This document shows positions 44,856-59,315 of a stretch of 64,000 nt of DNA, one piece after another. How positions within the stretch are numbered: position 1 is the stretch's first letter; each line of letters opens with the position of its first letter. Under the pieces are notes generated by a model. The model was not told the DNA's origin, did no database searches, and saw only the letters and a program-made list of their open reading frames with translations. Source of the DNA: Haloarcula sp. H-GB4. GTDB taxonomy: Archaea; Halobacteriota; Halobacteria; Halobacteriales; Haloarculaceae. A program made the position numbers and the translations under genes. Location: contig NZ_JAVDDX010000003.1 of assembly GCF_030848575.1 (NCBI RefSeq), positions 248,001-312,000 on the forward strand, read 5' to 3'.

Positions 44856-45057
44856 ACTACAACTGATATCACGCGGTGTCTGAAACTGCACAGCGACTAC
44901 GAATCGGCTGGACGTATGGTTCTGATATGCGTACCGGCCCATGGACCACTCATCCGCTGTTGTCAGTCCAGTCGCGAGACGTATTTTTGATCTTATAGAT
45001 TAGAATAACAACTGTACCAGCATTAGCGTCTGTTGCAATCGCTACCGCCGACCCCCT

Positions 45058-48949: not shown

Positions 48950-49792
48950 TTAGTTGGCTGTCGGCTGGTCGTCCGCGTCGTAGACTTCGTTGATGAACGA
49001 TGTCGGCAGGCTCGTCGTTAATCCGCCGTCAAGCACCAGATTCTCACCGGTCAGGAAACTCGACATTTCGGAGGCAAGGAACAGCGTCGTATCAGCGACT
49101 TCCTGCGGTGTGCCGAACCGACCGAGTGGATACTGGTCGAGCCAGCGCTCCCGTGCGCTCGTCTCTCCGGTTCGTTCCTCCGTGTTTTCCATCTCTGCCC
49201 GCCTATTTGCTGTTTCGATGGTCGCCGCGGAAATAACGTTCGAGCGGATTCCGTGCTGGCCGTAATGGGCGGCGATGTTTCGGGAGAGCGCCAGAAGCCC
49301 ACTTTTCGCCTCGGAGTAGCCGGAGAGACCGATACCGAACAGGCCGTTGACCGAGCCCATGTGGATTATCGACCCGCCGCCAGCGGCGACCATCGCTGGC
49401 AGTACCTCTTTGCTCAGGAGGAATTGGCTCTTCAGGTTCAACTCGACCATCGACTCGAAGGTCTCCTCGTCACACCGGTGCAACAGATTGGCGGATTCGT
49501 CTGCTCCACCAGCGTTGTTTACAAGTACCCGGATGTCCCCAAATTCTTCGATGGCCGTGTCGACAAGGTCCCGTACTGCATTCCGGTCTGTGACGTCACA
49601 CTCGACCGGAACAACGCGACCCTCGTGTGTCTCGGTTAGCTCCGTCGCAACCGCTTCCACATCCTCGTAGGTGCGCGAGCAGACGACGACGTCGCCACCC
49701 GCTTCGGCGAACCGGGCCGCGATCTCGCGCCCGATACCCCGTGACGCGCCAGTCACAATGGCGGGCCGGTCCGCTAGTGATAGCTCTACCAT
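48950..49792 (-). CDS. Short-chain dehydrogenase/reductase
   Basis: ATG 49792 (MVELSLADRPAIV) gives 280 residues. It is a classical SDR: GASRGIG (16-21), NNAGG (92-96), the catalytic Ser147 in HMGSVNG, Tyr159 and Lys163 in GYSEAKSG, and a late FLTGENLVLDGG. SRT after strand two (Ser39/Arg40) suggests NADP or mixed use. It is 49 bases downstream of the enolase-superfamily gene and probably oxidises the sugar-like substrate or reduces its keto product. The C-terminal LPTSFINEVYDADD is extended. Confidence 0.9.
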   Translation of the reverse strand: MVELSLADRPAIVTGASRGIGREIAARFAEAGGDVVVCSRTYEDVEAVATELTETHEGRVVPVECDVTDRNAVRDLVDTAIEEFGDIRVLVNNAGGADESANLLHRCDEETFESMVELNLKSQFLLSKEVLPAMVAAGGGSIIHMGSVNGLFGIGLSGYSEAKSGLLALSRNIAAHYGQHGIRSNVISAATIETANRRAEMENTEERTGETSARERWLDQYPLGRFGTPQEVADTTLFLASEMSSFLTGENLVLDGGLTTSLPTSFINEVYDADDQPTAN

Positions 49793-49841
49793 GACAGGGT
49801 CACCCACGTAAGCTGCCCTCTTGAAAGTTGCTCTTGGCCGC

Positions 49842-51011
49842 TCATGTGATTCGATACTCCTCAATGGCAGCCATATCCACAGTGATACCGAGGCCGGGAC
49901 CCTCCGGAGCCGGAAGACAGCCGTGGCTGACTTCGAACTGTGTCTCGATGATGTCTGCCTCCCAGCCGTAATACGTCGAATCCGGTGGCAACGAAAAGCC
50001 TGGGATGCCGGTGAACGCGTGGAGGATCGCCGCAGTCCGAATTCCGAGGTCGAATGCACAGTGGTGGGTAAAGGGAACCCCGGCATCTTCGAGGATAGCG
50101 GCCTGCTGTCGAATCCCACTGATGCCGCCAGCTGGGGTCAAGTCGATAACGCCGACATCCATCGCGCCAGCCTCCACGAGCGACTGCAGATTGTGGGAGA
50201 TATAGGTGTCCTCGTTCGGTGCGATTGGCTGGCGGAGTCGTTGCCGGAGCCGAGCTAGCGACGTGTGTGAATCGACTCGAATCGGCTGTTCCATGTACTG
50301 TAAGTAGATACCTGCATCTTCGAGCATCGCACCGACCCGAACTGCTTGGTCGAGCGTCCAGCCCTGATTCGGGTCGAGTCGAAACTCCAGTTGCCCGTCG
50401 ACCTCATCGTGCATCGCTTTGATCCGCTCGACGTCCTGTCGCCAGTCCCGCCCAGCCTTTGTTTTGAGGACAGTGAAGCCAGCTTCAAGCGCTTCTCGCG
50501 CCTTGAGACGAGACTCCTCGGGCGAGAGAATACCGAGGCAGAAGGCGACAGGGACGTCAGCGGGTGCAGTACTATTGCCATCGACGCTTTGCCGGTGTTG
50601 CTGAGCACCCTGTGTCGGTGCTGTCCACCCACCGAGAAGCTCGTACACAGGTCTCTCGAGGGCTTTGCCGACGATGTCCCAGCAGGCTGTTTCGACAGCG
50701 GCAAAGAACATATCGACGTTCGTGTACTCAACGAACACCTGCCGGCGGAGCCGCTCGGTTTCGAACGGCGACTGGCCCTCAATCATCGGTCCAACACCGT
50801 CTTCAATAATCGACTCGGTGGCCTCTGGTGACAGGAAGACACGCATCTCGCCCCAGCCGCTGATCCCCTCATCCGTGTCGACACGGACGAGGACGCGTTC
50901 CATCGAGTGTAGTTTCCCGTGGTTGGTCACGTACGGCCCGATTCCGAGGTGCTCATCCAAGTCGGCCAACGGTACATCTACAGTTACCGCTGACACGCCG
51001 GTTATCTCCAT
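49842..51011 (-). CDS. Mandelate racemase-type enolase-superfamily dehydratase/racemase
   Basis: ATG 51011 (MEITGVSAV) gives 389 residues. The capping domain runs to about 125, then the barrel. LKTKAGRD is the KxK motif (general base), FRLDPNQGW, YMEQPI and PNEDTY supply the three metal acids, and the VID...FTHHCAFD segment can give the Asp-His pair of the mandelate racemase subgroup. Such enzymes abstract the alpha proton of an acid substrate, mostly dehydrating sugar acids. Exact substrate not known: the motifs do not match a single family that I can name. A 58-residue stretch after the capping domain (GAQQHRQSVDGNSTAP) is unusual. Confidence 0.87.
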   Translation of the reverse strand: MEITGVSAVTVDVPLADLDEHLGIGPYVTNHGKLHSMERVLVRVDTDEGISGWGEMRVFLSPEATESIIEDGVGPMIEGQSPFETERLRRQVFVEYTNVDMFFAAVETACWDIVGKALERPVYELLGGWTAPTQGAQQHRQSVDGNSTAPADVPVAFCLGILSPEESRLKAREALEAGFTVLKTKAGRDWRQDVERIKAMHDEVDGQLEFRLDPNQGWTLDQAVRVGAMLEDAGIYLQYMEQPIRVDSHTSLARLRQRLRQPIAPNEDTYISHNLQSLVEAGAMDVGVIDLTPAGGISGIRQQAAILEDAGVPFTHHCAFDLGIRTAAILHAFTGIPGFSLPPDSTYYGWEADIIETQFEVSHGCLPAPEGPGLGITVDMAAIEEYRIT

Positions 51012-51058
51012 GCACCCCTGTCGTTCGGGAACCGATATCAAAGTACCGCTTCCCCCTC

Positions 51059-52207
51059 TCAGGTCACTGTCTCGATGGCGCTTTCGACCCACTCCAGTGA
51101 CTGCTCCGGGAGCAGTCCGTAGTTATAGAACGAGAGCCGCGGCACTCCCTTCGAGTCGAGGGTTTCCACGATATCGACCACGGTAGCCTCGTCGTCGATG
51201 GCTGGATGGCCCGGTAAGAGGCCGACGTGGAGTGGCACGTCATCGATCACGGTCTCAACGGCGTTGTACGCATCTATGACTGCTTCAGTTGACGACTCGT
51301 AGGCTGGCAGACAGTAGTAATCGACGTGGTTCGAGAGCGCTTGCAGGTCGGCTCCGACGATCCACTCGCGGCCGGGTTCCGGTGCGCCGACGTAGTAGCT
51401 AAGCGGTGTCGCTCCCGCGGCGTCAGCCAGCGTAGCGTACAGTGACACCAGCGTCTGTTCGCGGACATCAACGTACGCGGCGACAGTACTGTGGTCTGCA
51501 AGCCACTCCTCAGGTGAGCGGCCGTGTGATACGTCGCCAGCGACGATATCGTCCAGCGCGCTGGCCACCGTCTCGCGTGCCCGTTCAGTATCGACACCCG
51601 CAGCCGTCGCATTTTCTTGACAGTGTGGGCAGAAACACACTCCGAGCAGGAACTCTCCGAGCACGCCCAACTGCGCGTGGATCTTCTGGTGGTGCCAGCC
51701 GAACCCCGTCCCGTAGAAGTAATCGAATGTTTCCAGTTCGATACGGGCAAACTCATCGCGGGACGCCAGATCCGAGACCAGTGCCGAGAGATACGTCTGG
51801 ACCGCGGGCTGGGACGGACACAGGCCAAAGATCAGGTCGTCACCGTGTGCAGATTCCAGCGTGTACTCGGGGTTGGCCATCCCGATCCGAGAGTTGTGGC
51901 AGCCGACTGTCCAGGAATTGAGTGAAAGCTCTGACAGGCCGGCGGCGATGTCCGCGACCCAGTCCCCGTCCATCTGTTCATACGGAACCGGTTCGAGGTC
52001 CCCGTACTCCGGGCCGGGCTCGAAATACGAACTCGCACGGGCAAACAGTGTCCGCCGCTCCGGATTGTGTGGCGTGAATGCCTGTACAGTGTGATAGTTC
52101 GTCGCGAGATTTAGTTCGTCGATGCCGATGTCACGCAGCCGGGTTTCCACCTCGGCCGGCCCTTGGTCCAAGAGGTCCCACGGGTACGCCCACATCGCGA
52201 ATTCCAT
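51059..52207 (-). CDS. Unrecognised 382-residue protein, probably an alpha/beta barrel
   Basis: I do not recognise this family. It starts MEFAMWAYPWDLLDQGP and shows repeated strand-helix units such as IDELNLATNYHT, LSLNSWTVGCHNSR, ARIELETFDYFYG, PLHVGLLPGHP and PRLSFYNYGLLP, consistent with a TIM barrel. IELETFDYFY carries acids that could be catalytic, and GVCFCPHCQ is a Cys cluster (CxCxxC) possibly for a metal. GFGWHHQKIHA holds three His. No signal peptide. It lies 40 bases downstream of MalG-like permease, inside the operon, so it probably acts on the imported compound, perhaps as a glycosidase or lyase. Confidence 0.72.
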   Translation of the reverse strand: MEFAMWAYPWDLLDQGPAEVETRLRDIGIDELNLATNYHTVQAFTPHNPERRTLFARASSYFEPGPEYGDLEPVPYEQMDGDWVADIAAGLSELSLNSWTVGCHNSRIGMANPEYTLESAHGDDLIFGLCPSQPAVQTYLSALVSDLASRDEFARIELETFDYFYGTGFGWHHQKIHAQLGVLGEFLLGVCFCPHCQENATAAGVDTERARETVASALDDIVAGDVSHGRSPEEWLADHSTVAAYVDVREQTLVSLYATLADAAGATPLSYYVGAPEPGREWIVGADLQALSNHVDYYCLPAYESSTEAVIDAYNAVETVIDDVPLHVGLLPGHPAIDDEATVVDIVETLDSKGVPRLSFYNYGLLPEQSLEWVESAIETVT

Positions 52208-52247
52208 ACGCGGACAACTATCGCGGCGATAATAAAAGTAGAGGCGG

Positions 52248-53087
52248 TTACTCCTTGACCGCGCCAGCCGTCATGCCAGCCACGATATACTCCTCTAGGA
52301 AGGCGAACAAAATCAGGAGTGGGATAATACCGATAACAGAGACGGTGAGCATCATCCGCCAGTCGGTTTGCAGTGCGCCGACCATCGAGAAGACACCGCG
52401 TGGGATGTTGTACTTCGCACTGTCAGTGAGGAAGGTGAGCACGAACAGCAGCCGGTTCCACGCGTAGAGGAAGGTGTATGTGACACTGGCGACCAGCGCC
52501 GGCTTCGTGAGCGGGAGCACGATCTTCGTGAGGATCTGTAGTTGGCTCGCCCCGTCGATACGCGCTGATTCTTCGAGCGCGACGGGTATCGTCTTGAAAT
52601 ACCCGTACAGCATCCAGACGTTGAACGGCAGTGTGAACGCCGCCGCCGGGACAATCACAGCCAAATAGGTGTTGAATAGCCCCAGCTGGGTGATAACGTC
52701 GAAGAGGCCGACGATTAACACGACTGGTGCGAACATCTGGACGACCAGCACGGCGAGGAGGAAGGTTCGCTTCCCCACAAAGTCGTTCCGGGCACAGGAG
52801 TAGGCGGCCGGTATCGCTAACAGAAGCGTCAGCACGACCGTCCCCACAGAGATGATGAAGCTATTCCCGACCCAGAGTAACACGTCAGTCTGCGTCCAGA
52901 CTTGAAGATACGCCTGAATGCTGGGGTCGCTGGGGACCAGTGTCGCTGGCGCAGCGAATATCTCCGATTCCGGCTTGAGCGTACTCGAGAACATCGCGTA
53001 GAACGGCAACATCATGAGCCCAAGCAGTCCGATCAGCACGCCGTAGAGGCGGACTTTGCGGAGACTGCTCCGGTCGTGGCCTGCCAT
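52248..53087 (-). CDS. ABC sugar-type permease (MalG-like)
   Basis: ATG 53087 (MAGHDRSSLRKV) gives 279 residues; a GTG two codons earlier, overlapping the upstream stop, is also possible. Six helices and an EAA-type loop, EESARIDGASQLQILTKIVLPLTKPA, at about 185-210 identify a CUT1-type inner-membrane permease. It forms the channel with the MalF-like subunit. The EAA loop contacts the ATPase. The operon order matches sugar ABC systems. Confidence 0.92.
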   Translation of the reverse strand: MAGHDRSSLRKVRLYGVLIGLLGLMMLPFYAMFSSTLKPESEIFAAPATLVPSDPSIQAYLQVWTQTDVLLWVGNSFIISVGTVVLTLLLAIPAAYSCARNDFVGKRTFLLAVLVVQMFAPVVLIVGLFDVITQLGLFNTYLAVIVPAAAFTLPFNVWMLYGYFKTIPVALEESARIDGASQLQILTKIVLPLTKPALVASVTYTFLYAWNRLLFVLTFLTDSAKYNIPRGVFSMVGALQTDWRMMLTVSVIGIIPLLILFAFLEEYIVAGMTAGAVKE

Positions 53088-53089
53088 CG

Positions 53090-54028
53090 TCACAGCTCAT
53101 CGCCCCCGCGCGTGTAGATGCGCAGGTAGATGATGGCGAAGACGAACAGGAACAGGAACCCGATGACACTGTAGGCGGCGCCGCGTCCGAGGTTCCCGTT
53201 CTGGAGGCCCACCTGATAGATATGGATGACGAGCGTCGCCGTCGAACTGATCGGCCCGCCGCCAGTCATCGTCCAGATGACGTCGAAACTGACGAACGTC
53301 CAGATCGTCGACAGTAGCGTGGCAATCAGAACGACGCTTTTCAGCTGTGGGAGCGTGATGTACCTGAACTGATGCCACTTCTCGGCACCGTCGATGGCGG
53401 CTGCCTCGTAGAGCTCCTGCGGTATCGACTGCAATCCCGCAAGGAATATGATCGCCATGAACGGCGTCCCGATCCAGATATCAGCCACGACGACGCCGAG
53501 CCACGCCAGACTCGGGTTCCCGAGGATACCGATACCCTGCTCGATGACACCGAGTTTCAGCAAGATCGCGTTGAGGTAGCCGAACTGCGGGTGCTCTATC
53601 CAGCGGAACACCACAGCGGAGATCGCGTAGGGAATCCCCCACGGAATGAGAAACGCTGTGCGGAAGAACTTCCGACCGCGAATATCACCCTTGAGGTGAA
53701 CGGCGATAAGCAGTCCCAGCAGTGTCTTGCCAACGACACCGGCAACGACCCAGCGGCCGGTCTGCCAGAGCAGCCTGTAGAAGATGTCGCTGTTGAATAT
53801 CTCGACGTAATGCTGGAGTCCCACGAACGTCTCAATGTTGGAGTCGGCGGGTGACTGGTACAGTGACAGCCGAAACGTCTCGATAATCGGGTACCCGACG
53901 ACGGAAAGCAGGAACACCGCTGCGGGAGCAATGAGGAGGTACGCTCGGCTATTGCGCTGGACGTACGCCAGCCCTCGTTCGAGACGTGAGTCATCGGACG
54001 TTTCGGTGTATTCCTCTGCCAAACTCAT
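53090..54028 (-). CDS. ABC sugar-type permease (MalF-like)
   Basis: The 312-residue protein has six helices and the EAA loop ELYEAAAIDGAEKWHQFRYITLPQ near residue 215-238. The N-terminal 35 residues are polar (MSLAEEYTETSDDSR), followed by AYLLIAPAAVFLLSVVGYP, the usual first helix. It pairs with the MalG-like subunit encoded just downstream. Ten bases separate it from the binding-protein gene. Confidence 0.92.
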   Translation of the reverse strand: MSLAEEYTETSDDSRLERGLAYVQRNSRAYLLIAPAAVFLLSVVGYPIIETFRLSLYQSPADSNIETFVGLQHYVEIFNSDIFYRLLWQTGRWVVAGVVGKTLLGLLIAVHLKGDIRGRKFFRTAFLIPWGIPYAISAVVFRWIEHPQFGYLNAILLKLGVIEQGIGILGNPSLAWLGVVVADIWIGTPFMAIIFLAGLQSIPQELYEAAAIDGAEKWHQFRYITLPQLKSVVLIATLLSTIWTFVSFDVIWTMTGGGPISSTATLVIHIYQVGLQNGNLGRGAAYSVIGFLFLFVFAIIYLRIYTRGGDEL

Positions 54029-54037
54029 CCCTGTCTG

Positions 54038-55396
54038 TCACTCCATGGCATCTTCGAGATCACTCTGGGCATCGTTGAGCGCTTTCTGCGGCGACTTTCG
54101 GTCCGCCAGCGCTTCCTGAATCGCCTGGACCATCCGGTCGTTGAACTCGCTGAAGTTACCGAGCTTCGGTCGGGCGCGGGCGTACTGCCCCGCCTCGACG
54201 AAGGGTCCCCAGTTCTCCGAATCTGAGAAGTACGAGCGCTCACCGACGGCTTCGACGACTGGGAGGAACCCTTTCTGCTTCGAGTACTGGAACCGCCGCT
54301 CCTCATCGAAGTAGAACCGAATCAGATCCCGGGCGAGGTCCTTGTTCTCGCTCTGGCTCAGGATGGCGAGCGTGTCGATGGTGAACAGGCTGTACCGGCC
54401 TTCTGGGCCACGCGGTACCTGCACGATACCGTAGTCGAAGTCGGCTTCCCCGTTTTCTTTCGCGGATTCGATGTTGAGTCCCGTGTACACGTGCCCGATG
54501 ACCATCCCGAGGTCCCCGTTCTCGAACAGCTGTCGGATGTCCTGCCGCGTCGAGGAGAGCGGTGAGGACTGTGTGACGTTGTGTTCGAGGTGGAGGTCGG
54601 TGTACAACGAGAGGGCATCGACAGCTCCACTGGAGTTTACCACAGGCATTCCCTCGTCGTCGACAAGGTCCGCGCCGTGTGACCAGTGGTAGTGGTAGTA
54701 CTGCGACCCAGTCTCGATCGCGTCGGCCCCTGCAAGGCCCAGTGCTGGGACGCTCGCATCACTGTCGCGGATCTGCGTTGCGGCATCCAACATATCCTGC
54801 CACGAGTTGAGGGACGGGTCTTCGGGGTCGAGCCCCGCCGTCTCGAAGACGTCTTTGTTGTAGTACAGGCACTTGTTCGAGGCGGCCCACGGCACGCCGT
54901 AGTGGGAGCCGTTGTACATCGTTCCATCGGCCACGCCGTCGTAGAACTGTTCACCGAACTCCCCGTCCATCATGTCATCGAGCGGTTCGAGTGCCTCTTT
55001 ACCCACGAGCTGGGGGATCCAGCGCGCAGGCCACCGACTGACATCGGGTGCTTCCCCACCGTCGACACGGTTGTTCACAGTTTGCCGGGCGTTGTCCCAC
55101 GTAACGCTGGTGAACTCGACGTCGACGTCATGCTCGTCCTCGAAGGCTGTGTTATTCTCCTCGAAGAATTGCTTGATGTTGTCCCCGACACCCATCGTGA
55201 GGAACTGCACGCTCTGCGTACCGCCGTCGCCGCCATCACCGCCGCTCTCACTGTCGCCGTCACCACCGTCACTACCGCTCCCACCGTCGCCGCTGCACCC
55301 GGCGATAGCGATGGCGCCGCCTGCGCCGAGTGCTTGGAGAAGCCGTCGGCGGTCGATACTGTCGTCGATAGACCTGTCGTTGTTATCGGGCTGCAT
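54038..55396 (-). CDS. ABC extracellular solute-binding lipoprotein
   Basis: ATG 55396 (MQPDNNDRSIDDS) gives 452 residues. A Tat signal (DRRRLLQALGAGG, from residue 15) ends in lipobox AIAGC with Cys34, followed by an unstructured Gly/Ser/Asp linker (residues 36-64). The mature part is a type 1 SBP of the maltose/glycerol-phosphate type: YGVPWAASNKCLYYNKDVFE near 160 and SLFTIDTLAILSQSE near 345. It captures the substrate outside the cell. A Trp/Tyr-rich site (YYHYHWSHG near 240) fits carbohydrate or aromatic ligands. Its start lies 48 bases after the creatininase-family stop. Confidence 0.92.
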   Translation of the reverse strand: MQPDNNDRSIDDSIDRRRLLQALGAGGAIAIAGCSGDGGSGSDGGDGDSESGGDGGDGGTQSVQFLTMGVGDNIKQFFEENNTAFEDEHDVDVEFTSVTWDNARQTVNNRVDGGEAPDVSRWPARWIPQLVGKEALEPLDDMMDGEFGEQFYDGVADGTMYNGSHYGVPWAASNKCLYYNKDVFETAGLDPEDPSLNSWQDMLDAATQIRDSDASVPALGLAGADAIETGSQYYHYHWSHGADLVDDEGMPVVNSSGAVDALSLYTDLHLEHNVTQSSPLSSTRQDIRQLFENGDLGMVIGHVYTGLNIESAKENGEADFDYGIVQVPRGPEGRYSLFTIDTLAILSQSENKDLARDLIRFYFDEERRFQYSKQKGFLPVVEAVGERSYFSDSENWGPFVEAGQYARARPKLGNFSEFNDRMVQAIQEALADRKSPQKALNDAQSDLEDAME

Positions 55397-55444
55397 CGTT
55401 AATGTCACCTATTTCCATGTACATAATTCTTTGTATTGTGTCAC

Positions 55445-56251
55445 TCACTGCTCAGCATTGTGCTCGTGAATCGCAGTCATGAGGGCCGCGAGTTCGTCGC
55501 CGATGACCGAGCGGATTCGTTTGCCTGTCTCTGCGCTCGCCTGCTTCGGCGTCCCGATGGCCCCGGACGTAGAATACTCGTCGAACGAGCGGTAGACAGA
55601 GACGTTGCCTCCGTCAAGCAAGTCTTGCCCGCCCCAGCCGTAATGTTCGTCCATCGGTTCGCCGTCGCGGACCTTTGGGTTGCCTACGAGGTCTGGTCGG
55701 AGCGCGAGCATGAGGGACGTTTCGAACTCACCGCCGTGCGCCATCCCCCCTGTCTCGGTCGTTCGGAATTCCTCGATTCTATCCGACGCCAAGTGGAAGT
55801 ACGTCGTTCCCAGTACTTCGGCGTCAGTGTCGACGCCCACGGTACTCACGACGGCGTCAATGAGTGAACTGTTCCCGCCGTGGCCGTTGACGAACAGCAC
55901 CGCATCGAATCCGTTCTGGATGCCAGCGTGTGCGATATCCTCAAGTGTCGCTCGCAAGTGTGCAAACTCGAGTGACAGGGTCCCACCGAACGACAGATGG
56001 TGTGGCGAGAACCCGCTCCAGACCGGCGGTGTCACGACGACAGGCACGTCGTCCAGACGCTCGATAGCAGTGTCGACCATCGCCTCAACGAGGAGCGTGT
56101 CGGTGATGACCGGGAGGTGATTCCCGTGCTGTTCGACGCTTCCAACGGGAATAACGAGGACAGAGCCCGACTGTTCACCGACATCTCGGATCTGACTCGC
56201 AGTCATCCCAGCCCATTCGTTGTCCTTCCGACCGATAGTATCGTACAACAT
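55445..56251 (-). CDS. Creatininase-family hydrolase in the transport operon
   Basis: The 268-residue protein keeps the creatininase metal site: VGSVEQHGNHLPVITDT (Glu, His, Asp), VNGHGGNSS (His) and AHGGEFETSL (His/Glu). It starts one base after the ATPase stop and precedes the binding protein, an unusual position for an enzyme within a transporter operon. Known members hydrolyse cyclic amides, formamides or lactams, so the imported compound may carry a C-N or lactone bond. It is only distantly similar to the homologue at 29771-30502. Confidence 0.88.
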   Translation of the reverse strand: MLYDTIGRKDNEWAGMTASQIRDVGEQSGSVLVIPVGSVEQHGNHLPVITDTLLVEAMVDTAIERLDDVPVVVTPPVWSGFSPHHLSFGGTLSLEFAHLRATLEDIAHAGIQNGFDAVLFVNGHGGNSSLIDAVVSTVGVDTDAEVLGTTYFHLASDRIEEFRTTETGGMAHGGEFETSLMLALRPDLVGNPKVRDGEPMDEHYGWGGQDLLDGGNVSVYRSFDEYSTSGAIGTPKQASAETGKRIRSVIGDELAALMTAIHEHNAEQ

Positions 56252-56252
56252 A

Positions 56253-57350
56253 TTACACTGATTCTGTCCGCTGTGGCTGATTCAGTTCCACTCGCTCGCC
56301 ATCGGGACCAAACAGATGCATATCCTCTGTATGAAACCCGAGCTCGATTTTGTCGCCCCGTTCCGGGCGATACTCGCTATCGACCCGGGCTACGACTTCT
56401 TTCGACCCGCCCCCAGTCTCCAGATAGAGGAAGTTGTCAGACCCCATTGGTTCTACGACGTCGACAACTGTATCGATGTACTCGCCGGCGCCCTCGGCGA
56501 CGAAATCTTCTGGACGAACGCCCAACGTGTACTCTCCGTCCGGAATGTCGACGTTGAGCGTAAACTCGATATCTGACGAGTGGAACGTCGCGCGCCCGCC
56601 GCTATTCGTCACACTCGCTTCGAAGAAGTTCATCGATGGCGATCCGATGAACCCCGCGACGAACTTGTTGTTGGGCTTATCGTAGCAGCGTTCCGGTGGC
56701 GCAACCTGCTGGAGTTCACCCTGATTGAGAATCACGATCCGGTCGGCCATCGTCATCGCTTCCGTCTGATCGTGCGTGACGTAAATTGTCGTCACGTCAA
56801 GCTCTTCCTGAATCCGCTGTATCTCCGTACGCATCTGTGTCCGGAGCTTGGCGTCAAGATTCGACAGCGGTTCGTCCATCAGAAACACATCTGGGTCGCG
56901 GACAATCGCCCGTCCAAGTGCGACACGCTGTTGCTGGCCACCCGAGAGCTGCTTCGGCAGGTCGTCCATGAGGTCCGAAATCTCCAGTAGCTCGGCGGCC
57001 TCAGTTACCCGCTCCTCGATCTGATCATCGTACTCGCCTGACAGCCGAAGCCCGAAAGACATGTTATCGCGTACGGTCATGTGTGGGTACAGGGCGTAAC
57101 TCTGGAACACCATCGCAATGTTCCGGTCCTGTGGACGAACGTCGTTGACTACGTTCTCCCCGATAGCAATCTCACCGTCGGTGACCGTTTCGAGGCCGGC
57201 AATCATCCGAAGTGTCGTCGACTTGCCACACCCCGAGGGTCCGACAACGACGACAAACTCCCCATCCTCGACGGCCAGAGAGAGGTCCTCAACTGCAAGG
57301 ACGCTGTCGTCGTATACCTTGCTGACGTTTGATAGTGTAACTTCGCTCAT
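56253..57350 (-). CDS. ABC sugar-type ATPase (MalK/UgpC type)
   Basis: ATG 57350 (MSEVTLSNVSKVYDD) gives 365 residues. Walker A is VGPSGCGKSTTLRMIAG (residues 36-50), the signature LSGGQQQRVALGRAIV near 135, Walker B VFLMDEPLSNLDAKLR and H-loop YVTHDQTEAM. A C-terminal OB-fold (TOBE) part from about 240 marks the MalK/UgpC/MsmX type, which may be shared between transporters. First gene of the ten-gene operon. A TATA (57381-57388) and a GTTTCCAAT half-site farther upstream suggest IclR control. Confidence 0.93.
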   Translation of the reverse strand: MSEVTLSNVSKVYDDSVLAVEDLSLAVEDGEFVVVVGPSGCGKSTTLRMIAGLETVTDGEIAIGENVVNDVRPQDRNIAMVFQSYALYPHMTVRDNMSFGLRLSGEYDDQIEERVTEAAELLEISDLMDDLPKQLSGGQQQRVALGRAIVRDPDVFLMDEPLSNLDAKLRTQMRTEIQRIQEELDVTTIYVTHDQTEAMTMADRIVILNQGELQQVAPPERCYDKPNNKFVAGFIGSPSMNFFEASVTNSGGRATFHSSDIEFTLNVDIPDGEYTLGVRPEDFVAEGAGEYIDTVVDVVEPMGSDNFLYLETGGGSKEVVARVDSEYRPERGDKIELGFHTEDMHLFGPDGERVELNQPQRTESV

Positions 57351-57380
57351 ACCGAGTAGAAGAAGCATCGCAATCATCAT

Positions 57381-57388
57381 TAATAAAT
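57381..57388 (-). promoter_or_regulatory. TATA box of the catabolic operon
   Basis: CATTTATTA on the minus strand spans about 57381-57389 and is roughly 33 bases before the ATPase ATG at 57350, leaving a leader of only a few bases. Confidence 0.5.
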
Positions 57389-57583
57389 GTTGGTAGTATT
57401 GGCACATCACGCAGGCCACTCACATCGGAACCCGCGGAGCACCTGTGGCGCAACCTCCGATATGACTGCGTAGCCGACGGTTCTGAACCGAGGCTAAACG
57501 TCACACCGATACGTATGACCACATCCTATGATACAGAATACGGAGTAGAGGCTCACTACTTCGTAAAGGCCGGATATCAACGC

Positions 57584-57613
57584 GTTTCCAATCTCTTTCA
57601 ATGAGATTGAAAG
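57584..57613. promoter_or_regulatory. Operator candidate A in the IclR intergenic region
   Basis: GTTTCCAAT (57584-57592) is followed by the perfect inverted repeat CTTTCAATGAGATTGAAAG (57595-57613; arms CTTTCAAT and ATTGAAAG). The related half-site ATTGGAAAC recurs near the IclR start, suggesting one regulator binds both. Confidence 0.55.
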
Positions 57614-57810
57614 TCACTGGGGACGCTCGTACGGAATACACGACTGTCACAAACCGACTCTAGAGTGTCTGTAACTACTAAATCCGGCACTCGACATTAC
57701 ATCATAGGCCCTCATGTGGTATGTTGCCATTTTCCGTGAGTAGGGAGGGATACAAAAATAACACTCGTACTCTTGTTAGATTCGCCTCTCTCAGGGGAAA
57801 GCATCAGTTT

Positions 57811-57838
57811 TCAAGATGATTGGAAACATTTTGTTTCC
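57811..57838. promoter_or_regulatory. Operator candidate B next to the iclR promoter
   Basis: GGAAACATTTTGTTTCC (57822-57838) is a perfect seven-base inverted repeat with a three-base spacer. ATTGGAAAC at 57819-57827 is the reverse complement of the half-site at 57584-57592. The element lies just upstream of the TATA (CTATTTTA, 57849-57856) of the iclR gene, so it can autoregulate. It resembles the palindrome read by bacterial KdgR, another IclR protein (from memory). Confidence 0.6.
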
Positions 57839-57877
57839 TGACGGAATCTATTTTACCCTGGGAGAAAAAGCGCATTC

Positions 57878-58660
57878 ATGCCTTCACAGAACAAAAAAAC
57901 GATCAGCGCGGTTGAGACAACGCTGGACATTCTCGCCGCCCTCGGAAAACTTGAACCAATTGGCCTCTCCGATCTTGCGTCTCATCTTGATATCCCCACA
58001 AGCACTGTCTTCATCCACCTCAATACACTCGTCCAGCGGGACTACGTTGTCAAGGAATCCGGACAGTATCGTCGCTCGTTCCGCTTTCTGGAGCTCGGTG
58101 GCAGTGTTCGGCAAAGACTTGACATCGGCCGACTGCTTCGCAATAAGGTTGAAGAGCTCAGCAGAGAAACCGGCGAGATTGCTGGTGCTGGCATCGAGGA
58201 GAACGGCCAGCGGGTCATCCTCTACAGGAGCTCAGGCGGAAAGGCTGCGGGCGACGAAATTCCCATCGGGAATCACACAGAGATGCACTGGACATCGCTG
58301 GGTAAAGTAATTCTGGCGCATCTTCCGGTCGAAAAGCGAAACGAAATCGTTGCCAACCATGGGCTTCCGAAAGGGACTGATAACACGTTATCGTCCCGGT
58401 CTGATCTCGCAGCGGCGCTTGAGCGAATCCGTGACCAGGGCTATGCGATAGATGATGAGGAGCATCTCAGAGGCGTTCGAGGCGTCGCCGTTCCGATATT
58501 CAACGACGAACAGGAAGTCATGGTGTCGCTTGGTATTACTGGACCCAGAGATCGATTCACCTCTAGGTATATGGCAAATCTACTAGAGATACTTCGATAT
58601 ACGAAAAACGAAATCGAAGTTCGAAGCCAGTACTACGAATACAGTACTATAGACGGATAG
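57878..58660 (+). CDS. IclR-family transcriptional regulator
   Basis: The 260-residue protein begins with a winged HTH (TISAVETTLDILAALGKLEP, LSDLASHLDIPTSTVFIHL; residues 9-55) and ends with an IclR ligand domain (GGKAAGDEIPIGNHTEMHWTSLGK near 125, DDEEHLRGVRGVAVPIFND near 195). IclR proteins sense the substrate or intermediate of the pathway they control. It is leaderless (TATA 26 bases before the ATG) and divergent from the ten-gene operon across 527 bases that contain both operator candidates. Control of that operon is inferred. Confidence 0.93.
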   Translation: MPSQNKKTISAVETTLDILAALGKLEPIGLSDLASHLDIPTSTVFIHLNTLVQRDYVVKESGQYRRSFRFLELGGSVRQRLDIGRLLRNKVEELSRETGEIAGAGIEENGQRVILYRSSGGKAAGDEIPIGNHTEMHWTSLGKVILAHLPVEKRNEIVANHGLPKGTDNTLSSRSDLAAALERIRDQGYAIDDEEHLRGVRGVAVPIFNDEQEVMVSLGITGPRDRFTSRYMANLLEILRYTKNEIEVRSQYYEYSTIDG

Positions 58661-58949
58661 ACGTGAATATGGTAGTGAAACGCTTGGCATCACCGCTAAA
58701 ATAGAGACGTAGCGTCAGTTCGGCATGATTTTGTCCCCGAGCTTGGCTATGTGGGTATTGGGCCCTTTTGATTTTCCCTCTACATCTCGTGTTTTGATTC
58801 GAACGTTTCATATGATCGAAATAGCAAAATCGTTGGGAAGCCATCTGCGTCGCTTTCTCACACTGATTGCACGACCAGCGCACCGGTCACCTCTCACCAC
58901 AGATAACGCCTGCACTTCTGTTATCCTTTCCGTGAAACCGTCAGCCTGC

Positions 58950-59315
58950 TACGTTGAACTGGCTGTGTTCACAGATGTCGAGTCCGATATGCGAATCGCG
59001 CGCGAAGAAATCTTTGGCCCCGTACAGACTGTCCAGTCGTTCAAGACGTATGACGAGGCCATCGCGCTGGCAAACGACACGCAGTTCGGACTTGCCGGCG
59101 GGGTCGCGACAGAATCGACTGATATCGCCCATCAGGCTGCCACAGACATAGACGCAGGCGTTGTCTACATCAATGCGTACGGACCGATCCGACCCGAAGG
59201 GCCGTACGGCGGGTTCAAGCAGTCAGGCATTGGCCACGACCTCGGCAGGGCAGCGGTAGAGCAGTATCAGCAACCCAAAACGGTGTACGTCAACCTCGAC
59301 AGCCCCGAAATCTGA
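58950..59315 (+). pseudogene. Aldehyde dehydrogenase C-terminal remnant
   Basis: From about 58950 the frame reads YVELAVFTDVESDMRIAREE then IFGPVQTVQSF, ALANDTQFGLAGGVATES and PYGGFKQSGIGHDLG, a standard aldehyde dehydrogenase C-terminal third (about 120 of 480 residues) ending in TGA 59313. The nucleotide-binding half and the catalytic Cys are missing. The upstream 220 bases of the same frame look unrelated. It is a relic of a full gene. Its loss may mean that the pathway lost its aldehyde step here or has moved it elsewhere. Confidence 0.8.

Follow-up and report, generated by a model that had tools for sequence, protein, structure and literature searches.

Genes and promoters at the locus

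The window, by which we mean the whole stretch of 64,000 nucleotides that was analysed, covers positions G000:C3:248001-312000 of a Haloarcula genome and belongs to a 400-kb replicon. The closest annotated matches of the window are Haloarcula plasmids, for example the Har. marismortui plasmid pNG700 and the Har. hispanica plasmid pHH400. An IclR-family regulator of 260 amino acids is encoded at 57878-58660 on the plus strand. Both domains of the family were detected, the C-terminal ligand domain PF01614 (IclR_C) with 2.9e-34 and the N-terminal helix-turn-helix PF09339 (HTH_IclR) with 3.4e-10, over the cut-off, and the nearest solved structures include IclR 1mkm and KdgR 1ysp and 5y6i. Orthologues share 73-98% identity within Haloarcula and about 67-73% in Haloferax.

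A transport and catabolic operon runs divergently on the minus strand. Its first gene (56253-57350, start at 57350) encodes an ABC transporter ATPase of the UgpC/MalK type, whose counterparts are annotated as ugpC in Har. marismortui, Har. hispanica and Hfx. mediterranei. The remaining transport genes (51059-56251) encode a creatininase-family protein (55445-56251), a substrate-binding protein (54038-55408), two permeases (53090-54028 and 52248-53093) and a hypothetical protein (51059-52207). The catabolic part follows at 48950-51092 on the same strand and, according to the annotation in relatives, comprises an enolase-superfamily enzyme of the mandelate racemase/muconate lactonizing type and an SDR oxidoreductase. 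The start codons of the two open reading frames listed here, 49842-51092 and 48950-50119, are probably placed too far upstream. A Rid protein and a HAD phosphatase also belong to the operon. In Hfx. mediterranei, kdgK1 and eda adjoin the same operon. In Haladaptatus and Halostagnicola, the orthologous iclR is divergent from a gluconate:H+ symporter gene, followed by an enolase-superfamily enzyme. From the operon content, together with these kdgK1/eda and gluconate symporter neighbours, we infer a sugar-acid pathway that proceeds via a 2-keto-3-deoxy intermediate.

Both divergent genes are preceded by TATA-like elements. The one of iclR, CTATTTTA, is located at 57848-57855 on the plus strand, 22 nt before the ATG, and its CTATTT is retained in most close orthologues. 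On the minus strand, the transporter operon has its element, TTTATTAA, at 57380-57387; the ATG at 57350 follows after about 30 nt, and the block AATAAATGTTGG at this element is also found in Haloferax mucosum and H. mediterranei. The transcripts of iclR and of the transporter operon are probably leaderless or carry a very short leader.

Downstream of iclR, positions 58725-59315 hold a C-terminal aldehyde dehydrogenase fragment that matches only positions 347-461 of Pfam Aldedh. At the equivalent place Har. marismortui has genes for a second IclR protein, for an ABC transporter and for an alcohol dehydrogenase, and its aldehyde dehydrogenase there is complete. This segment is missing in the present genome and in Har. 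hispanica, and the fragment looks like a deletion scar.

A conserved dyad occurs twice in the divergent region

The intergenic region was compared among 17 Haloarcula orthologues, several Haloferax genomes and two further families. The conserved unit is a 17-bp dyad, TTYCAA-N5-TTGRAA, and it is present twice. Site A, TTTCAATGAGATTGAAA, at 57596-57612 is a perfect 7-bp dyad, or 8 bp when the flanks are included. Site B, TTTCAAGATGATTGGAA, at 57809-57825 has the same motif and ends 22 bp upstream of the iclR TATA-like element. Read as a direct repeat, the two sites are 76% alike, which is clearly above chance. In the whole 4.19-Mb genome the exact motif TTYCAAN5TTGRAA was found at two places, and both are here. 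A search for further regulon members at one mismatch gave ten other places, more than half of them inside open reading frames and none scoring above 13.9. These scores derive from a weight matrix built from the Haloarcula and Haloferax sites. Site A scores 23.1 and site B 19.7, both being among the matrix sites, compared with a 99% level of 11.1 and a maximum of 19.1 in 2000 shuffles.

Sequence and position of both sites are conserved. Site A is exact in 14 of the 17 Haloarcula orthologues and has one or two mismatches in the other three and in Haloferax; site B is exact in 11 of 17, with one or two mismatches in the remainder, although many of these orthologues come from close relatives and the counts overstate their independence. 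Measured from the iclR ATG, A lies at -282 and B at -69 here, within the ranges of -281 to -286 and -69 to -71 that were seen across Haloarcula and Haloferax. Haloferax thus retains the positions at about 70% protein identity, despite a mostly diverged surrounding intergenic sequence. Two Haloferax genomes (L135, L136) have a degenerate version of site B.

Occurrence of the dyad was also compared with occurrence of the regulator gene. An iclR orthologue of at least 73% identity is carried by 17 of 32 Haloarcula genomes. The exact dyad was found in 15 of these 17 carriers, but only in 2 of the 15 non-carriers (Fisher p = 4e-5, ignoring relatedness), and the remaining two carriers have versions with one or two mismatches at the same positions. 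Among the exact dyads in carriers, 25 places are at this locus and 5 elsewhere. As a control, the reversed pattern was searched for and gave no match in the 32 genomes.

Two other elements were noted in the intergenic region. A block, TCATGTGGTATGTTGCCA, at 57712-57732, downstream of site A and before a further dyad, site C, described below, is conserved in close Haloarcula. On the transporter side, a short palindrome, CGGTTCTGAACCG, lies at 57470-57495; one relative (L014) has CGGCTCTGAGCCG, a paired change, and the palindrome is not retained in distant Haloarcula.

The half-site shifts together with the recognition helix

In genomes outside the matrix, among them Haladaptatus and Halostagnicola, the best or a near-best site was again found at the position of B, at -69 to -72. 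The sites are TTTCGATAGCGTCGAAA in Haladaptatus (-71), TTTCGGCATGATCGAAA in Halostagnicola (-72), and TTTCGATATGATCGAAA (-71) and TTTCGACAGAGTCGGAA (-72) in other genomes. In Haladaptatus, Halostagnicola and another Natrialbaceae genome, B takes the form TTTCGR-N5-TCGRAA at -71 or -72. The half-site of the Haladaptatus/Halostagnicola group is TTTCGA, that is TTTCG in place of the TTYCA found elsewhere. Regulators that go with TTTCGA have FTHLNTL, FAHLNTL or FNHLNTL as recognition helix, compared with (F/Y)(I/V/L)HLNTL in the others. Seen in few lineages, this co-variation of helix and half-site favours the adjacent IclR as the predicted binder. The divergent gene of this group is a gluconate:H+ symporter and the motif is nevertheless present, thus the motif goes with the regulator rather than with the ABC genes. 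Two Natrialbaceae-like genomes (L138, L139) have an extra dyad of the form TTCCGAT...CGAAT/CGAAA between A and B, at about -221 from iclR.

A weak third copy and the spacing of the sites

The weight matrix revealed a third, degenerate copy of the motif. Site D (GGCCACTCACATCGGAA, 57414-57430) is separated from the ABC-ATPase start downstream of it by 64 bp, a distance kept in nearly all Haloarcula and Haloferax, and ends 26 bp upstream of the TATA-like element of the transporter operon. Its score is 3.7 here, inside the shuffle range (95% level 7.5), 7.0 in most close relatives and 10-17 in Haloferax.

Sites A and B are 212-215 bp apart in the Haloarcula and Haloferax loci and slightly closer, at 208-209 bp, in those of Haladaptatus and Halostagnicola. 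Over four families their spacing therefore spans 208-215 bp, about 20 helical turns. In contrast, the spacing between D and A varies from 99 to 302 bp. Since A-B is constant and D-A is variable, A is placed relative to B and not to D.

Strings adjoining sites A and B

The earlier note had named other units as operators, and the strings it described are present. GTTTCCAAT occurs at 57584-57592 and its exact reverse complement at 57819-57827. Two exact copies compare with 0.19 expected in the window, and only one of 100 shuffles reached two; a one-base extension of the pair gives a match of 10 out of 10 (GTTTCCAATC/GATTGGAAAC). At 57595-57613, CTTTCAAT and ATTGAAAG form an inverted repeat of 8 bp without mismatch, the arms being 3 bp apart. 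GGAAACA and TGTTTCC likewise form a perfect palindrome with arms at 57822-57828 and 57832-57838, located upstream of the iclR TATA-like element as had been claimed.

Conservation distinguishes these strings from the dyad. In the GGAAACA-TTT-TGTTTCC palindrome (57822-57838) the left arm falls in the right half of site B and the right arm is unconserved. TGTTTCC is found in none of the 16 other Haloarcula orthologues, so the palindrome gives no indication of exceeding chance and, judged by this comparison, is a coincidence of this genome. Exact GTTTCCAAT beside site A is likewise confined to this genome among the 17. It contains a plus-strand TTCCAA, in the same orientation as the left half of site A and 10 bp upstream of it. 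TTCCA or TCCAA at this place is kept in most close Haloarcula and absent in divergent Haloarcula and in Haloferax, and may represent an external third box.

The proposal of an autoregulating IclR dimer is partly supported. Predicted operators of the adjacent IclR are very probably located here, and one of them, just upstream of the iclR promoter, would fit autoregulation. The conserved half-site is, however, TTYCA(A) and not GTTTCCAAT, and GGAAACA-TGTTTCC is unconserved. The orthologous loci, which the earlier note had named as the place where the idea could fail, keep the sites from Haloarcula to Haloferax and show the shifted form in Haladaptatus and Halostagnicola. The weak site D at the transporter promoter, and an unrelated dyad between A and B that is described in the following, had no part in that account.

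A second dyad is shared across Haloarcula

Site C, TAACACTCGTACTCTTGTTA, at 57759-57778 is a dyad of the form TAACA-N3-GTAC-N3-TGTTA. With flanks the consensus is ATAACA-N3-GTAC-N3-TGTTAT, a dyad of 20-22 bp. All 17 Haloarcula orthologues have it between -119 and -121, exact or with one mismatch, and it is absent from the orthologous Haloferax locus. Exact matches occur in 27 of the 32 Haloarcula genomes, with none for the reversed pattern, and three Haloferax genomes have one or two places each at up to one mismatch. Further exact copies in the present genome are at G000:C3:142902, C3:318172 and C5:140967. When one mismatch is allowed, 8 of 13 places in this genome are no more than about 700 bp away from an IclR gene, of which there are 13, compared with a rough expectation of about 0.09. 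With open reading frames on these replicons chosen by an acidity filter, the dyad was often seen on the 3' side of the IclR gene, in some cases between genes that converge. A two-mismatch version (TAACAACTGTACCAGCATTA) was noted at 45006-45025, near the end of a dicarboxylate/amino acid symporter gene.

Given its place near many IclR genes, we considered site C as the operator of this IclR, but rejected this as the main reading. It is absent from the Haloferax locus where A and B persist, and the dyad is often 3' of IclR genes, even between convergent ones. Site C is probably bound by another factor. The clustering of the dyad near IclR genes points to a regulon, for which we found no description. 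For comparison, the TrmB motif of Har. hispanica has 19 bp and is similar to that of Hbt. salinarum (PMC10817205).

Relation to known operators

Group 1 operators of bacterial IclR proteins follow GKTYCRY-W3-4-RYGRAMC, with the subgroups GTT-11-AAC and WTT-11-AAW, and the site centre usually lies at -20 to -80 of the regulator gene (PMC8222616). Sites A and B have half-sites of this type, TTYCA/TGRAA or TTTCG/CGAAA, in most orthologues of the four families. The half-sites point in the same direction (TTYCR ... YGRAA), and the centre of B at -61 is within the usual range. The spacer differs, with seven bases between TTYCR and YGRAA compared with the five or six published, hence A and B are a variant of the group 1 type and not strict members. 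They also differ in arrangement, because group 1 operators stand in tandem at 18-22 bp whereas A and B are about 20 turns apart, and in their archaeal host with TATA/BRE promoters.

In PcaU, PobR and HmgR sites an extra external direct half-site is present, and IclR proteins can bind as tetramers (PMC8222616). Site A resembles these three-box sites in the extra direct TTCCAA 10 bp outside the dyad. Unlike in those systems, the box is found only in close Haloarcula relatives and cannot be essential group-wide.

The group 2 consensus is TGRAACAN1-2TGTTYCA (PMC8222616). The earlier note had likened the GGAAACA-TGTTTCC core to KdgR sites. The form does fit this consensus, but the right arm TGTTTCC is seen in this genome only, TGRAACA-N1-2-TGTTYCA is unconserved at the locus, and the protein scores 117.9 bits with the NCBIfam KdgR model, far below the cut-off of 275. 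Regulation of sugar-acid genes remains a plausible functional parallel to enterobacterial KdgR and IclR.

Among haloarchaeal IclR proteins, XacR, GacR, RhcR and MscR activate the catabolism of sugars or sugar alcohols (PMC11519228). As in these systems, an IclR-type regulator stands beside a CUT1-type sugar ABC transporter and catabolic genes. The cluster itself is different, containing an enolase-superfamily enzyme, an SDR, a Rid protein and a creatininase-family protein, with kdgK1/eda adjacent in Hfx. mediterranei. Taken as a whole, the arrangement of A and B is a switch of an ordinary kind with an unusual, fixed layout.

Proposed mechanism and alternatives

The IclR-family protein encoded at 57878-58660 very probably uses A and B as its operators, and D as a weak one. 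This reading of the sequence data is based on the motif, its restriction to the locus, its co-occurrence with iclR, the fixed positions and the shift with the recognition helix. An IclR dimer would recognise TTYCA-N7-TGRAA, and the ligand would be either an aldonic acid or a 2-keto-3-deoxy sugar acid formed from an aldonic acid. Through B the regulator would control iclR itself, and through D with A it would activate the divergent operon for uptake and catabolism. D and B each lie a short way upstream of a TATA-like element, a position that would suit an activator. For archaeal regulators of the TrmB type, binding upstream of the TATA element favours activation and binding downstream favours repression (PMC10817205). 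This rule, together with the known haloarchaeal IclR activators, leads us to favour activation. As site C lies between A and B in Haloarcula, a second factor could share control.

The constant length, about 20 turns, of the DNA between A and B suggests that it may loop and bring the dimers on the two sites into contact. In E. coli, AraC forms a loop between araI and araO2, which are some 210 bp from each other and upstream of a regulator gene and catabolic genes that run divergently. A and B have a similar separation and are also upstream of divergent genes. The protein family and the domain of life are different, and the argument for looping here is the constant spacing alone. A more elaborate version has an AraC-like loop over the 20 or so turns between A and B, with D being filled on induction and a genus-wide factor at the C dyad inside the loop coupling many IclR loci to a common signal. 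We regard this version as speculative and rather unlikely.

Several other explanations were weighed. That A and B are operators of a different transcription factor, which would control the cluster in place of the adjacent IclR, is improbable. Haloarchaeal genomes have many other regulators, and the region already seems to contain a binding site, C, for a Haloarcula-wide factor. Yet the motif stays with the iclR orthologue also in genomes with other divergent genes, is restricted to the locus, tracks the presence of iclR and has the half-site of the IclR family. Still less probable is that the GTTTCCAAT half-sites and a KdgR-like GGAAACA-TGTTTCC palindrome are the operators. These strings are real, GTTTCCAAT is commoner in the window than expected, the palindrome fits the group 2 consensus, and three-box sites that combine group 1 with group 2 are a described type (PMC8222616). 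Against this, neither TGTTTCC nor exact GTTTCCAAT beside A recurs in another Haloarcula orthologue, while the TTYCAA-N5-TTGRAA dyads are kept across genera.

Two last explanations deserve hardly any weight. The inverted repeats could act in RNA, as a terminator, an attenuator or a leader hairpin, and a short hairpin is indeed possible at site A. B and D are upstream of the TATA-like elements and would fall outside both leaderless transcripts, the halves change independently and without compensation (TTTCAA with TTGGAA), and no long T run follows the repeats. Chance similarity in an AT-rich intergenic region has a comparably negligible probability. Short palindromes are common in such stretches, and D alone is inside the shuffle range; for A and B, however, chance is refuted by positions conserved across genera, including genomes outside the matrix, and both score above the shuffle maximum with a matrix that includes them.

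With A, B and D assigned to the adjacent regulator, a testable set of two strong operators and one weak one would be available for an uncharacterised haloarchaeal IclR protein. The shift of the half-site with the recognition helix would be useful for an archaeal IclR recognition code. Finally, the constant 20-turn distance between A and B makes loop-mediated control in an archaeon directly testable.
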